Below, piece by piece: positions 4,704 through 31,301 of a stretch of 47,911 bases of DNA. Under the pieces are notes generated by a model, which searched no databases, was not told where the DNA came from, and worked only from the letters and a program-made list of their open reading frames with translations. The stretch is from Gammaproteobacteria bacterium. GTDB lineage: Bacteria > Pseudomonadota > Gammaproteobacteria > Thiohalospirales > Thiohalospiraceae. Numbering within the stretch: the first letter of the stretch is position 1; each line of letters begins with the position of its first letter. A program made the translations under genes and the position numbers. The stretch spans positions 1 through 47,911 of the forward strand of contig WFVH01000038.1 of NCBI GenBank assembly GCA_015491735.1, written 5' to 3'.

Positions 4704-5192
4704 ATGGGTACGACGGCAATCGATCTTACCGAATTTCTCAACCAGCAGTATCTCTGTGAATCACTGACTATCAAAGAGGTCGAAACCCTGCTTGAATATA
4801 CCGAGCTTATCACCTTCAAGAAAAAAGAAACCATTGCAGATATCGGAGAGGTCGGCGAAGCCCTGTATTTTGTCGTACGCGGTGAGGCCGCGCTGGTTTA
4901 CGACAACGGTGACAATCAGGTTGAAATCGGCCGCATGAAAGAGGGGGAACTCATGGGAGAAATGTCTTTTTTCGATCGCCAGCCCCGTTCCGTCCGCATG
5001 ATGGCTGTCTCATCCGACACAAGATTGTTACGCCTCACCCGCACCATGTACAAACGATTACGGATAGAGCATCCTTTCATCGCGGTTAACCTGCTGGAGC
5101 ACGCAATCATCAGTCTCGATCATCTGATTCGTCGCCTGAGCACCGATGTTGCAATTTTCAACCGTTACTTCTACGCAGCGGGGAAAAAATAG
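4704..5192 (+). CDS. stand-alone cyclic-nucleotide-binding domain protein
   Basis: 162 residues, essentially a single Crp-type beta-roll with flanking helices and no helix-turn-helix, so not a transcription factor by itself. The phosphate-binding cassette is canonical: GEMSFFD followed by PRSV, with Glu86 and Arg95 at the positions that contact ribose and cyclic phosphate. cAMP or cGMP binding is therefore plausible. The start at 4704 has AGAGAGG seven bases upstream; the longer frame from 4629 has no site. It lies divergent from dsbA and opposite the cytochrome c4 operon. The target protein is unknown. Confidence 0.85.
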   Translation: MGTTAIDLTEFLNQQYLCESLTIKEVETLLEYTELITFKKKETIADIGEVGEALYFVVRGEAALVYDNGDNQVEIGRMKEGELMGEMSFFDRQPRSVRMMAVSSDTRLLRLTRTMYKRLRIEHPFIAVNLLEHAIISLDHLIRRLSTDVAIFNRYFYAAGKK

Positions 5193-25916: not shown

Positions 25917-26399
25917 TTATCCGTCGCTGTGATTGGCTTGATCTGTCATGTGAGAAAAGATCGCTTCGATATCTTTTTCCCAACGGTTGAATATTTCATC
26001 AGCAGACGCTTCGTCAGACAGGAATTCGCGAAAGGTTGATGGGTTGACTGTTACCATCAAGGTGCTGTCTCCTTCAGCAAATATGGCAATACGCAAGGGC
26101 AGATAGGGAACAAGTTGGGGGTATTTGCGGGAAAGCGCTTCTATCTCGCCAGCTTTGCCAAAAAAAACAGCGCGGTATTTGTTGCTGGTATAGCCCATGC
26201 CAAGCAGACCGATGTTGACCATATCCACCCGGGCAACGGTGTATCCCTGTTGTTGAATGGTCTGTTTTAAATTGCCCAGCGCGGAAGCAAGCGGCTGGTG
26301 GGCGCGAACCATGAGCAAGTGATCTGCCTGCAGCGGCAGGGCCGCCAGCATCAGCAGAATGAACAAAAAAATGCCACGCAGAGCAAATGTTGTTTTCAT
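25917..26399 (-). CDS. secreted DUF302 protein
   Basis: 160 residues. A hydrophobic N-terminus (about 8-25, cleavage near LQA-DH) indicates export to the periplasm. The rest is a DUF302 domain (LASALGNLKQTIQQQGYTVARV ... LPLRIAIFAEGDSTLMVTVNPSTFREF). DUF302 is a small alpha/beta fold of unknown function. The gene overlaps the upstream cytochrome-DUF302 gene by 4 nt (ATGA), so the two are co-translated. It ends 50 bp from the 48-bp element. No terminator was recognised. Confidence 0.85.
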   Translation of the reverse strand: MKTTFALRGIFLFILLMLAALPLQADHLLMVRAHQPLASALGNLKQTIQQQGYTVARVDMVNIGLLGMGYTSNKYRAVFFGKAGEIEALSRKYPQLVPYLPLRIAIFAEGDSTLMVTVNPSTFREFLSDEASADEIFNRWEKDIEAIFSHMTDQANHSDG

Positions 26400-27460
26400 T
26401 CTGAAACCTCTTCAAGAATAGCGGAATAGATTTGGTGCAGTTCTTTGGATGTGTGTTCGAGATTGGCATTATTGAACAGGTTTCCAAAGCGCAGCGGGTT
26501 GACTGAAGTGACGATAACCTTGCCATCCTCCTGTTCCAGGACGGTGATGCGGTTGGGGAGAAACAGCCCCATCCGCGGATCAATCGCCAGCAGGGTATTT
26601 ATCTGCTGGATATTGCCAAAGTGAATGATCAACTGCTTTTTGTTTTCCTTCCCCTGCGCAACCAGACCGTCATCAAGATGGTGTTGCCGGATAATGCGTA
26701 GCCGCCTGGCGGAAATGGCTTGCTTGATGATATCCACAGTCTCGGCAAAGGGTTTTGCTGATACCGTAATCAAGGTAGGTTCGACGGGTGTTGCTGCCTT
26801 TTTATCCGCCTTCTGAACCTGTGTTTCGAAGCTGCGAATGAAGCTGACCACATCGTCGACATCCTGACCGCTGAGGCCCATTTTTGCGGCAGGTAACATT
26901 GGCGTTCCCCGTCTCCCTTTCAGCAGGGTTGTTCGGATAATCTCGTCCGAGGCAGCGGCAAGATAGCCCGGATTGTTCAAAGCCGGTGCAACAATGGGGA
27001 CATCGTGCAGACGGGTGAAGTTCACCCCGGTACCTGCTCCCCCCTTGCCCAGCGGTCCATGACAACGGGCGCAGTTTCTGGCAAAAATATCCCTGCCTTT
27101 TTCAGCGTTTCCCGCTGCGCCTCCAGGCACAAGTTTTACCTCTTTACGTCCCCAGCTGCGAATGTGTTTGACAATGGCATGGGTCTGTTCATCGCTGAGA
27201 TGCTGGAAGGCGGGCATGATCCGTCCCGGCCGGCCAAGACGGATCGTCCGGAAAAGGTAATCATCCGTGACGCTGGTGAGAAAATCCGGCAGTGCGAGGG
27301 GAATACCAATCCCGCCATCACCTTTATCACCGTGACAGGCAGCGCAGTGTATAGCGAACAGCTTGCCGCCGTCCGTCCCGGCATTCGCACTGGTTTCTGT
27401 TGCAACAAACAACAAAAACAGGGCTATGAATAAACGTAACTGATTGCGATCGATTTGCAT
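26396..27460 (-). CDS. di-haem cytochrome c fused to a DUF302 domain
   Basis: 354 residues. Signal peptide to about residue 24. Two class I cytochrome domains follow: CAACH (C39, C42, H43) with Met in RIMPAF (M82), and CARCH (C130, C133, H134) with Met in GTPMLP (M188). After a charged linker (about 212-230) comes a DUF302 domain (232-354). The whole protein should be periplasmic or anchored by an uncleaved leader. The start at 27460 has AAGGGA upstream; two longer in-frame starts do not. It is co-translated with the second DUF302 protein. Inference: the DUF302 modules sense or bind a ligand coupled to electron flow; nothing in the sequence names it. Confidence 0.88.
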   Translation of the reverse strand: MQIDRNQLRLFIALFLLFVATETSANAGTDGGKLFAIHCAACHGDKGDGGIGIPLALPDFLTSVTDDYLFRTIRLGRPGRIMPAFQHLSDEQTHAIVKHIRSWGRKEVKLVPGGAAGNAEKGRDIFARNCARCHGPLGKGGAGTGVNFTRLHDVPIVAPALNNPGYLAAASDEIIRTTLLKGRRGTPMLPAAKMGLSGQDVDDVVSFIRSFETQVQKADKKAATPVEPTLITVSAKPFAETVDIIKQAISARRLRIIRQHHLDDGLVAQGKENKKQLIIHFGNIQQINTLLAIDPRMGLFLPNRITVLEQEDGKVIVTSVNPLRFGNLFNNANLEHTSKELHQIYSAILEEVSE

Positions 27461-27593
27461 AAAGATCCCTTTTCGTGACATTTCTTCAGGGTTATATACA
27501 ACTTTAGTACACAATAGCAGGTTTTCAGCTTTCGTGGCGAAAAATGCTGGTTAAATATGTAGTTAAGGAACTGCGGCTGCTGCAACCTTTATG

Positions 27594-27631: not shown

Positions 27632-29767
27632 ATGCATTTCAGCGGACGGTTGAGTATCCGGTCAAAACTGGTCATTCTGCTGTTGCTCGCAAGTTTCGTC
27701 AGTATTGCCGTGGTTGGTTATCAGGGATTCCGCTCCGCCAGGGATGCTCTGGATGAGGCGGTATACAAAGAGCTGACAACGTTGCGGGCGGCCAAGACCC
27801 AGCAGGTGCAGGCTTATTTTTCGGATATTCATGATCAGGTATTGGCGTTTGCAGAGAACCGCACCATTATCGAGGCGCTGAACGAGTTTCGTACCGCCTA
27901 TCATCTGGCCGAACGTGAATCTGTCCCGGAACCCCAAAAACAGCAGCTGGTTGAGTACTATCGCAGAGAGTTTGTCCCGCGGCTGAAAGATCGCATGGGT
28001 GGTGAACCGGAGGTGAAACACTATCTCCCGGATGATGCTGCCGCCGCCTGGTTGCAGTATCACTATATTGCCGCCAATCCCAACGATGTGGGCAGTAAAG
28101 ATGCGTTGATGCGTGCGCCGGGTGATGATGGTTATTATGCCCAGGTGCATGAGCGTTATCATGAAAGCCTGCGCAGTCTGATTAAAAAATTTGGTTACTA
28201 TGATCTGTTTCTGATCGATCCCGAGAGTGGCAATATTATCTATTCGGTGTTCAAGGAGACCGATTTCGCCACCGGCCTTTTGCATGGTCCCTACGCCTCC
28301 AGCAATTTTGCCCAGTTGATCAAAGAGGTGATGCGCACCAAGGAGCGTGGCCGGGTACGATTTCAGGATTATGATATCTACATACCTTCCTACGGCGCAC
28401 CTGCTGCCTTTGTTGCGGTGACGGTGTTCGACGGCAGGGATATTGCGGGCATTCTTGCCCTGCAGGTTCCCAGTGATGAGTTGAACAATGTCATGACCAG
28501 TAATCAGGAGTGGGAGAAGAGCGGGATGGGTGAGACGGGTGAGGTGTATCTGGTGGGACGCAATCATCTGATGCGCTCCGACTCCCGTTTTCTGCTTCAG
28601 GACCGCGAGCACTATCTGCAGCTGTTGCGCGGGATCGGCATGCCGGCCGACGAGATTCAGCGTATCGAGAAAAACAACACCACCATCCTGTTTCAACCGG
28701 TGCATGGCGAGACGGTGGATCTGGCGTTGAGCGGCAAAACGGGAACGCGGGAGGTGGTGGATTACCGGGGTGTGCCGGTGATGAGCGCCTATGCGCCGCT
28801 GCGTGTCCGCGGGATGGACTGGGTCATTCTTTCCGAAATGGATATTGCGGAAATCAAGCAGCCGATCGACCGCTTCCGGCGTCACGTAATCGTTTCAGCC
28901 ACTATTCTGGGGGTGGTAATTACCCTGCTGGCGCTGCTGCTGGCGAGCTACATTACCCGGCCGATTCACGCTCTGGTGGCCGGAATGCGGCGGGTGGGCG
29001 CCGGAGAGTCGGATGTTCAGGTAAAGGTTGACAGCCGGGATGAGTTTGGTGAACTGGCCAACTCGTTCAATACCATGGTCGAGGGCATCCGCCAGCAGAA
29101 GCAGATTATCGAGGACAAGGAGCAGGAGAATGCCCTGCTGCTGCACTCTATTCTGCCGGAGTCCGTTGCACAGCGCATGAAGGCGGGGGAAGAGCAGATT
29201 GTCGATCGGATTCCCAATGTCTCGGTGATTGTCACCCTGTTGACGGGATTCAGCCACCAGGGTGAGGAAGAGAATCCTGAACACGCCATCGCCCGGCTCA
29301 ATCACCTGATAGCGGAGCTGGATGAGTCTGCCGCCGGACATGGCGTGGACAAGATAAAGACCGTGGGTGATGACTATATCGCCGCCTGTGGTCTGCTGAC
29401 CCCTCGCCTGGATCACGACAAGAGGGCGCTGGAGTTTGCGAAGGAGATGATGGCGATCGTACGGCGTATCGGCCAGGAGTATGGACTGGATCTTGAACTG
29501 CGTATCGGCATCCACTCGGGGACCGTGTTGGCGGGCGTCATTGGCCGGCACCGTTTCGCCTATGATATCTGGGGCAGTACGGTCGATCTGGCCAGCGAGA
29601 TCTGTTTCGCCGCCGCCCCGGGGTCTATCTGTATCTCGGAGCAGATGTATGCACAGCTTCATGATAAGGATGAGTTCAGCAAGGCGGGCCAGGTCAGGGT
29701 GGATGGTGAAGAGAGTGTACAGATCTGGTGCTGCAACCTGAGCGGGGAGGAGTCCTCCCGTGCTTGA
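27632..29767 (+). CDS. membrane receptor with degenerate class III cyclase domain
   Basis: 711 residues: transmembrane helix 1 (about 12-30), a large periplasmic Cache-type sensor, transmembrane helix 2 (about 414-437), a HAMP domain (about 438-490), an S-helix linker (LLLHSILPESVAQRMKAGEE) and a class III cyclase homology domain (about 527-690). The adenine-selecting pair is kept (K576 in KTVGD, D645 in YDIWG), as is the second metal Asp (D580). The first metal Asp is Leu (L536), and the transition-state Asn and Arg are Asp and Glu (D652, E656). It is probably unable to make cAMP by the known mechanism. AGGAG precedes the ATG. It overlaps the MscS-like gene by 8 nt. Confidence 0.9.
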   Translation: MHFSGRLSIRSKLVILLLLASFVSIAVVGYQGFRSARDALDEAVYKELTTLRAAKTQQVQAYFSDIHDQVLAFAENRTIIEALNEFRTAYHLAERESVPEPQKQQLVEYYRREFVPRLKDRMGGEPEVKHYLPDDAAAAWLQYHYIAANPNDVGSKDALMRAPGDDGYYAQVHERYHESLRSLIKKFGYYDLFLIDPESGNIIYSVFKETDFATGLLHGPYASSNFAQLIKEVMRTKERGRVRFQDYDIYIPSYGAPAAFVAVTVFDGRDIAGILALQVPSDELNNVMTSNQEWEKSGMGETGEVYLVGRNHLMRSDSRFLLQDREHYLQLLRGIGMPADEIQRIEKNNTTILFQPVHGETVDLALSGKTGTREVVDYRGVPVMSAYAPLRVRGMDWVILSEMDIAEIKQPIDRFRRHVIVSATILGVVITLLALLLASYITRPIHALVAGMRRVGAGESDVQVKVDSRDEFGELANSFNTMVEGIRQQKQIIEDKEQENALLLHSILPESVAQRMKAGEEQIVDRIPNVSVIVTLLTGFSHQGEEENPEHAIARLNHLIAELDESAAGHGVDKIKTVGDDYIAACGLLTPRLDHDKRALEFAKEMMAIVRRIGQEYGLDLELRIGIHSGTVLAGVIGRHRFAYDIWGSTVDLASEICFAAAPGSICISEQMYAQLHDKDEFSKAGQVRVDGEESVQIWCCNLSGEESSRA

Positions 29768-31301
29768 CTGGTTGCTGCAGGAGAGCTGGCTTGCCTGGGG
29801 TGTCGGGCTGCTGATCGGGTTTCCGCTGCTGACTATCCTTTTTGGGGAGATGCTCTACCGTATCGAAAGCGGTGGAGAGTCGCGAGCCTCGCTGGGAAAG
29901 GCCCTCTATTTTGTGCTCCCCAGTCTGGTGGTCTGGATGCTGCTGACCAACGTTCTGGAGCTTGATAGCAGCAATGTCTGGGTACGAACTGCCGCCACCC
30001 TGTTCTGGATTAGCCTTATCTATCTCACTCTTTCGGCATTTAATCTGTTCTGGTCTGCGCACAGTGCGGAAGATGGCTGGCAGAGCCGCATTCCCTCTCT
30101 GGTGCTGAATATCGCCCGGCTGTTTTTTATTCTGCTGGGGGTTGCCTTTGTCATGTCATCAGTATGGGGCATCGACCTGGGCAAGATGCTGGCGGCACTG
30201 GGTGTCGGCTCCATTGTGCTGGGTCTGGCGCTTCAGGACACCCTGGGAGGACTGTTTGCCGGTATTACCCTGATCTCGGCCCGGCAGTTCAAGGTGGGGG
30301 ACTGGTTGAAGACCGGCGATGTCACCGGGCAGGTGGTGACGGTCAACTGGTACTCGGTGACCCTGAAGACGCTGGAAAATGATCTGCTGGTGATTCCCAA
30401 CTCGGTGCTGGCGCGGGACACCTTCCGCAACTACAGTCAGCCTACGCCGGTTCACATGGAGCGCGTTATTATTCAGTTCTGGGAGGAGCATCCCCCCAAT
30501 CTGGTCAGAAAGGCACTGCTGGAAGCGGCCCGCGCTACCCCGGGTGTGCTGGAGGATCCGGCACCCAGGGTGATACTGCGGGAACTGGCCGATGATGCCG
30601 GTGCCTACGAGGCACTGCTCTATTTCGGCGATTACGGCAGGATAGATGAGATCCGGGATGCCTTCCTGACGCATGCCTGGTACGCAGCCAAACGCTACAA
30701 CATTGTGTTCCCCTATGAGGACTATCAGCTCTATCATTTTTCCGGCTCGGAGATGAATCTGGGGAGTGACGATCTCGTCGCCCCTGATGCGCTGGTGGAT
30801 AAACTGATGCAGCTGGAGGTGTTTGCGCTGTCCCGGGGAGAGATGGAGAGCATCACTCGCGGAGCACGTATTCAGCGGTTTGGCGCCGGGGAGCAGATCA
30901 TTCGTGCCGGGGTGGAGTACGGGAAATTCTTTATTGTTTTATCCGGTAGTGCGCGCAAGTATCTCATGGACCATACGGGGTGTGAGCAGAACATGGGAAC
31001 GGCTGATCCCGGCGATCTGATCGGGGTAGTGGCGGCGATGCGGCACTGCAAGAACATGATCACCGTGTATGCCAACAGTGATGTCCAGGTTGTCGAGTTA
31101 TCATTGGAATCGGTCGAACAGGTACTAAAATCCAATCCGCAGTTTGCCCAGGAGCTTGAGGAGGCGATCGAAACCCGTCTCGAGACCATTGATTCAATAC
31201 TGCAACGCAGTGACCGGGCTGTCCGTGGCGATGCTGTTCAACCCTCGAATCTCAGGCAGTTGCTGGGCGGACACAGACACCGTCGTCCACCACAATATTA
31301 A
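29760..31301 (+). CDS. MscS-family channel with C-terminal cyclic-nucleotide-binding-like domain
   Basis: 513 residues. About four hydrophobic N-terminal segments, then the MscS pore helix and beta domain (GKMLAALGVGSIVLGLALQD ... FKVGDWLKTGDVTGQV ... NDLLVIPNS), a cytoplasmic vestibule, and from about 355 a Crp-like beta roll. In that roll the cassette reads GDLIGVV...HCKNMITV (418-436): the consensus Glu and the Arg before the T/S are missing (Lys431 at or near the Arg place). The start is GTG 29760 with GGGGAGGAG upstream, inside the cyclase gene. The stop codon TAA lies in the inverted repeat of the adjoining miniature element, so the last residues may not be the original ones. Related MscS-derived channels are called bCNG. 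Confidence 0.9.
   Translation: MLDWLLQESWLAWGVGLLIGFPLLTILFGEMLYRIESGGESRASLGKALYFVLPSLVVWMLLTNVLELDSSNVWVRTAATLFWISLIYLTLSAFNLFWSAHSAEDGWQSRIPSLVLNIARLFFILLGVAFVMSSVWGIDLGKMLAALGVGSIVLGLALQDTLGGLFAGITLISARQFKVGDWLKTGDVTGQVVTVNWYSVTLKTLENDLLVIPNSVLARDTFRNYSQPTPVHMERVIIQFWEEHPPNLVRKALLEAARATPGVLEDPAPRVILRELADDAGAYEALLYFGDYGRIDEIRDAFLTHAWYAAKRYNIVFPYEDYQLYHFSGSEMNLGSDDLVAPDALVDKLMQLEVFALSRGEMESITRGARIQRFGAGEQIIRAGVEYGKFFIVLSGSARKYLMDHTGCEQNMGTADPGDLIGVVAAMRHCKNMITVYANSDVQVVELSLESVEQVLKSNPQFAQELEEAIETRLETIDSILQRSDRAVRGDAVQPSNLRQLLGGHRHRRPPQY

Follow-up and report, generated by a model that had tools for sequence, protein, structure and literature searches.

The receptor encoded in the window, by which we mean the whole stretch of 47,911 nucleotides analysed, belongs to a family whose class III cyclase domain is degenerate almost throughout and which is paired with an MscS-family channel, itself without the Arg that binds the cNMP phosphate in its C-terminal CNBD. 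This partner had been missed in an earlier note on the receptor, made from the sequence alone. Read from alignments, both halves of the pair are shown to be degenerate at the residues that define their chemistry. The two genes co-occur and co-evolve, and the receptor is under strong purifying selection. A pair so widespread and strongly preserved, with both halves apparently crippled, points to control of the channel by the sensor in which cAMP, the usual messenger, has no part. At a probability of roughly 45%, we propose that sensor and channel form one receptor-channel unit in which the pseudo-cyclase drives the CNBD-like domain by contact rather than through diffusible cAMP.

Architecture and catalytic residues of the two genes

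The receptor and channel genes contain the following features:

27632-29767 (+): receptor gene, 711 aa, ATG start; TM, periplasmic dCache-like sensor, TM, HAMP, signalling helix, class III pseudo-cyclase
28937-29095 (+): HAMP domain, receptor residues 436-488 (Pfam PF00672, 7.3e-16)
29096-29206 (+): signalling helix / cyclase transducer element, LLHSILPESVAQRMKAGE (from sequence; helices 2-20 and 23-30 of the predicted model)
29207-29728 (+): class III cyclase fold, residues 526-699, catalytic residues degenerate (Pfam PF00211, Guanylate_cyc, 4.3e-37; model; Foldseek)
29237-29239 (+): Leu536 codon at the metal-A Asp position (alignments)
29357-29371 (+): codons K576 to D580, substrate Lys and second metal Asp, both retained (alignments)
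29564-29566 (+): D645 codon, substrate-specifying Asp, retained (alignments)
29585-29599 (+): codons Asp652 to Glu656, replacing the catalytic NxxxR motif (alignments)
29744-29752 (+): Shine-Dalgarno-like ggggaggag of the channel gene, within the end of the receptor gene (from sequence)
29760-29767 (+): gene overlap of 8 bp, receptor stop over channel GTG start
29760-31301 (+): MscS-family channel with C-terminal CNBD, 513 aa, GTG start (Pfam MS_channel 7e-18, cNMP_binding 7e-13; phmmer and Foldseek to MscS/YnaI)
30873-31136 (+): channel CNBD, residues 372-459 (Pfam)
31026-31055 (+): degenerate phosphate-binding cassette, Glu replaced by Val423 and Arg by Asn432 (alignment to paired and unpaired relatives)

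Divergent from the receptor gene lies a di-haem cytochrome c fused to a DUF302 domain (26399-27514, -), which is followed by a second DUF302-like protein (25917-26399, -; sub-threshold match).

That the receptor carries a class III cyclase in the sense of fold and superfamily is indicated by its Guanylate_cyc domain, by an AlphaFold2 model of residues 488-711 (pLDDT 89.5), and by Foldseek, in which the cyclase-domain model matched 5o5l/5o5k and Rv1625c at E about 1e-17; among solved structures, those closest to it are class III domains from bacteria and mammals. The Cache sensor, HAMP domain, and S-helix had been described in the earlier note as well formed. For HAMP this is borne out by the Pfam match (7e-16), and the Cache call for the periplasmic sensor is plausible despite a dCache_1 score of 27.2 bits, which is below the Pfam cut-off of 45.

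phmmer alignments against AC5, AC8, and AC9 run through the C1-domain catalytic core without gaps and place Leu536, K576, D580, D645, Asp652, and Glu656 on the six catalytic positions. The spacing of these positions (0, +40, +44, +109, +116, +120) is exactly that of Rv1625c, whose catalytic residues are D256/K296/D300/D365/N372/R376 (PMC4174876), and therefore no register shift rescues Asp, Asn, or Arg, such a shift being excluded by the gap-free alignment as well. The residue calls of the earlier note (K576, D580, and D645 intact; Leu536, Asp652, and Glu656 substituted) are correct by these alignments and this spacing, which give no sign of the different alignment that it had named as a threat, with a metal Asp, Asn, and Arg elsewhere in the site. 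Active class III enzymes have two metal-binding Asp residues and an NxxxR motif; the receptor has D580 and Leu536 at the metal positions and Asp652/Glu656 in place of the motif. Of 29 class III cyclases taken as controls (27 drawn from the class and 2 from the window's own genome), all 29 had Arg and the metal Asps, including metal-A, and 28 had Asn; given these controls the losses in the receptor, as aligned, are not chance. The cyclase domain is thus folded as modelled, yet without one metal ligand and both transition-state residues. With three essential groups absent, one of them a metal ligand, catalysis by the window receptor should be lost, in line with the earlier claim.

The channel combines an MscS beta domain with a C-terminal CNBD, the composition of bCNG (MscS-CNBD) channels, as judged by Pfam, phmmer, and Foldseek. 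A CNBD that binds cNMPs has a Glu and an Arg in its cassette, and in the window channel these positions hold Val423 and Asn432. The phosphate-binding Arg is absent from all 105 paired channels (Ser in 93) and present in 13 of 14 unpaired MscS-CNBD relatives, with L230 as the exception; L232 and L233, also without Arg, are probably the remaining halves of family channels cut at contig ends. The CNBD Glu is present in 81 of the 105 paired channels and lost in the window genus, and no clear pattern between cyclase state and loss of this Glu was seen by eye. A further CNBD gene in the window (4812-5060, +) has the phosphate-binding Arg (PRSV), and therefore this cell probably has another protein that reads cNMPs in the canonical way.

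Pairing, selection, and probable order of loss across the family

Relatives were collected by scanning GTDB genomes with patterns taken from the sensor region, which are hence free of active-site bias. The scan yielded 80 loci, cyanobacterial for the most part, and together with further genomes gave 140 distinct receptors. The pair is present in about a fifth of the cyanobacterial genomes sampled and is also scattered in Gammaproteobacteria, Kuenenia, and Verrucomicrobia. A same-strand MscS-CNBD gene lies downstream of 111 of the 140 receptors, in all but three cases within about 300 bp, and the majority of the receptors that have no channel neighbour sit at a contig edge. Across 291 cyanobacterial genomes, the two genes occurred together in 62, the receptor without the channel in 3, and the channel without the receptor in 1 (Fisher p 2e-58). 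Both genes are retained even in four genomes (G594, G608, G648, and G574) where they lie tens of kb or more apart or on separate contigs. Receptor and channel family distances are correlated in a mirror-tree comparison (r 0.88, in part reflecting common descent). Within the window genus, both genes were found in G000 and G002-G006, and at the thresholds used both were absent from G001 and G007. A search for natural receptor-channel fusions found none.

Two loci (L089:3204-12180 and L093:3325-12136) encode three tandem paralogous receptors followed by a single MscS-CNBD channel, an arrangement that would fit several sensors acting on one channel; catalytic motifs are partly lost in all of these receptors. 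One cyanobacterial protein (G613:C1:162808-164250) has the family sensor and HAMP, with a profile match that ends before the cyclase domain, and a paired-type channel was not found in its genome.

Purifying selection on the receptor was measured among five genus members at 87-90% identity, giving dN/dS of 0.03-0.05 for the sensor and about 0.04-0.10 for the cyclase domain, in which one pair was saturated. Position 536 is L, T, I, M, and M in these five, and the genus receptors have Asp at 652 and Glu at 656 without exception.

Degeneracy extends through the family, as the homologue search proposed in the earlier note has now established. All six catalytic residues occur together in only 7 of 140 receptors; taken singly, Arg is present in 26, Asn in 77, the metal-A Asp in 73 (Glu in 21), the second metal Asp in 101, Lys in 114, and the specificity Asp in 113. 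A tree of the receptors built without the catalytic columns requires at least 12 changes of state for Arg and at least 15 for Asn, which would represent repeated loss when L114, an intact alphaproteobacterial member, serves as outgroup. Members of the gammaproteobacterial clade lack the metal-A Asp even where NxxxR is present (L011/G020, L117/G282, and L105 from Leucothrix), and therefore metal loss would have come first in that clade. The window lineage would accordingly have lost the metal-A Asp before NxxxR, and most cyanobacterial lineages, in which the metals are present and Arg is absent, appear to have lost Arg first. Six of the seven full-set homologues are cyanobacterial (L055, L059, L072, L081, L083, and L103); the adjoining channel CNBD has no Arg in five of them, and that of L059 is cut by the contig end. 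From these Arg-less channels beside full-set cyclases, CNBD loss may precede cyclase loss. Among Arg-less homologues, the Arg column ranks 173rd in conservation out of 175 cyclase columns, the top ranks being taken by structural Gly, Trp, and Tyr positions.

A proposed contact-coupled unit and its alternatives

Under the proposed mechanism, a periplasmic dCache-like sensor would signal via HAMP and the S-helix to a cyclase dimer that has ceased to produce any cyclic nucleotide. The co-encoded MscS-type channel presents a CNBD-like domain without the canonical cNMP phosphate contact, and the pseudo-cyclase would serve as a conformational coupler, contacting the channel's CNBD-like ring and opening or closing the channel on ligand binding. 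The folds that write and read cAMP would thereby be redeployed as a protein-protein interface, with nucleotide perhaps tuning the coupling. Several points weigh against such a unit. No natural fusion speaks for physical contact, and common descent accounts for part of the mirror-tree correlation. Seven homologues have all six catalytic residues, an Arg-less channel adjoins at least five of the six cyanobacterial ones, and the ancestral unit may have made nucleotide. Even when the canonical Arg is missing, a CNBD-like fold may bind cAMP, as in Popeye proteins; in addition, there is a stoichiometry mismatch between a dimeric receptor and a heptameric channel. The wider proposal, that this is a widespread prokaryotic ligand-gated channel system in which writer and reader folds have come off nucleotide chemistry and a periplasmic ligand gates an MscS-type channel by contact, with no second messenger involved, is put forward tentatively.

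Alternatively, the receptor may be a nucleotide-gated coupler, binding ATP or GTP with one metal via K576, D580, and D645 and relaying to the channel, through contact, either the level of nucleotide or ligand and nucleotide combined. These three residues are retained throughout the window genus and are present together in 76 of 114 Arg-less homologues, and GTP at a non-catalytic class III site has been proposed as a regulator of NeoR/RGC heterodimers (PMC12264004). However, their conservation among the Arg-less homologues is average (K576 55th, D580 91st, and D645 79th of 175 columns), one or more of them is lost in many relatives, and one metal ligand is gone in the window receptor itself. 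Because the pocket residues evolve at an average rate, the purine nucleotide binding that the earlier note had allowed for is weakly supported, its residue retention standing on the 76 of 114; a strong case for a preserved pocket was considered and rejected on the same ranks. We regard this alternative as rather unlikely.

Less probable again is residual or unusual chemistry, in which a weak or non-canonical cyclase product would serve as a small-molecule signal and a CNBD with Ser for Arg would be its reader. The seven full-set homologues, the common occurrence of a metal-A Asp or Glu in cyanobacteria, and the CNBD Glu of 81 of 105 channels would all be consistent with such a signal. On the other hand, metal-A Asp, Asn, and Arg are all three missing from the window genus, its CNBD lacks both Glu and Arg, and the Arg column is almost the most variable in the domain.

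The receptor could also be one subunit of a heterodimer, with one active site completed together with another cyclase. Class III sites lie at dimer interfaces (PMC4174876), and mammalian C1 and NeoR of the chytrid rhodopsin guanylyl cyclases have likewise lost NxxxR in a conserved functional protein (PMC12264004); the majority cyanobacterial state, with metals present and Arg lost, would fit this arrangement. In NeoR and C1, however, both metal Asps are retained, and association with a partner cyclase gives one complete site, which the window receptor, with Leu536 and a channel as its partner, cannot form. Because it lacks both NxxxR (as in C1) and one metal Asp (a C2-type loss), neither composite site would be complete, and rescue by heterodimerization is unlikely. 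Furthermore, the two other cyclases of the genome are of different types, and each genus genome has one family receptor (the G002 copy being split across two contigs). Our estimate for this possibility is accordingly low.

Finally, free drift of position 536 within the genus might indicate a decaying gene, expressed and unneeded, a reading that the earlier note had set aside and that is scarcely credible given contradiction by purifying selection (dN/dS 0.04-0.1 in each domain, frames intact), Asp652 and Glu656 fixed in the genus, a channel present whenever the receptor is, and the same state across phyla.

Known relatives and significance

The receptor shares its fold, HAMP, signalling helix, substrate Lys and Asp, and exact six-position spacing with class III AC/GC receptors, those of the Rv1625c type and TM-HAMP-cyclase proteins, and differs from them in its substituted metal-A Asp, Asn, and Arg and in its MscS-CNBD partner. 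bCNG channels, reportedly described by Caldwell in 2010 and Malcolm in 2012 as MscS superfamily members with a CNBD, have in common with the window channel a layout of MscS pore and C-terminal CNBD; the paired channels uniformly lack the CNBD Arg that unpaired relatives keep. KCNH channels likewise carry a CNBD-like fold that does not bind cNMPs canonically, the CNBD-homology domain, but their pore is unrelated and they have no co-encoded pseudo-cyclase. Pycsar systems (PycC with PycTIR or PycTM) also place a class III cyclase beside a CNBD effector, and the window gave weak PADLOC matches to them. These matches span only generic cyclase and CNBD parts, and in place of an active PycC and a CNBD-TIR/TM effector the window has a cyclase stripped of catalytic residues, a dCache/HAMP sensor, and an MscS effector; a Pycsar defence unit was therefore rejected.

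A search of open-access literature found no paper on a co-degenerate receptor-channel pair. The folds and layouts, those of class III receptors and bCNG channels, are already known, and contact gating, if shown, would be new in mechanism.

Class III pseudo-enzymes are known chiefly from active heterodimers, of which they form one half. The present receptor family, conserved yet degenerate in nearly all members, and tied to a channel without the matching cNMP contact, offers a clean natural case in which a messenger pathway may have been rewired into direct coupling. Such rewiring would suggest that about a fifth of the cyanobacterial genomes sampled carry this unit under incorrect annotations, "adenylate cyclase" and "cAMP-gated channel", and the control of CNBD-bearing MscS channels by periplasmic signals becomes directly testable.
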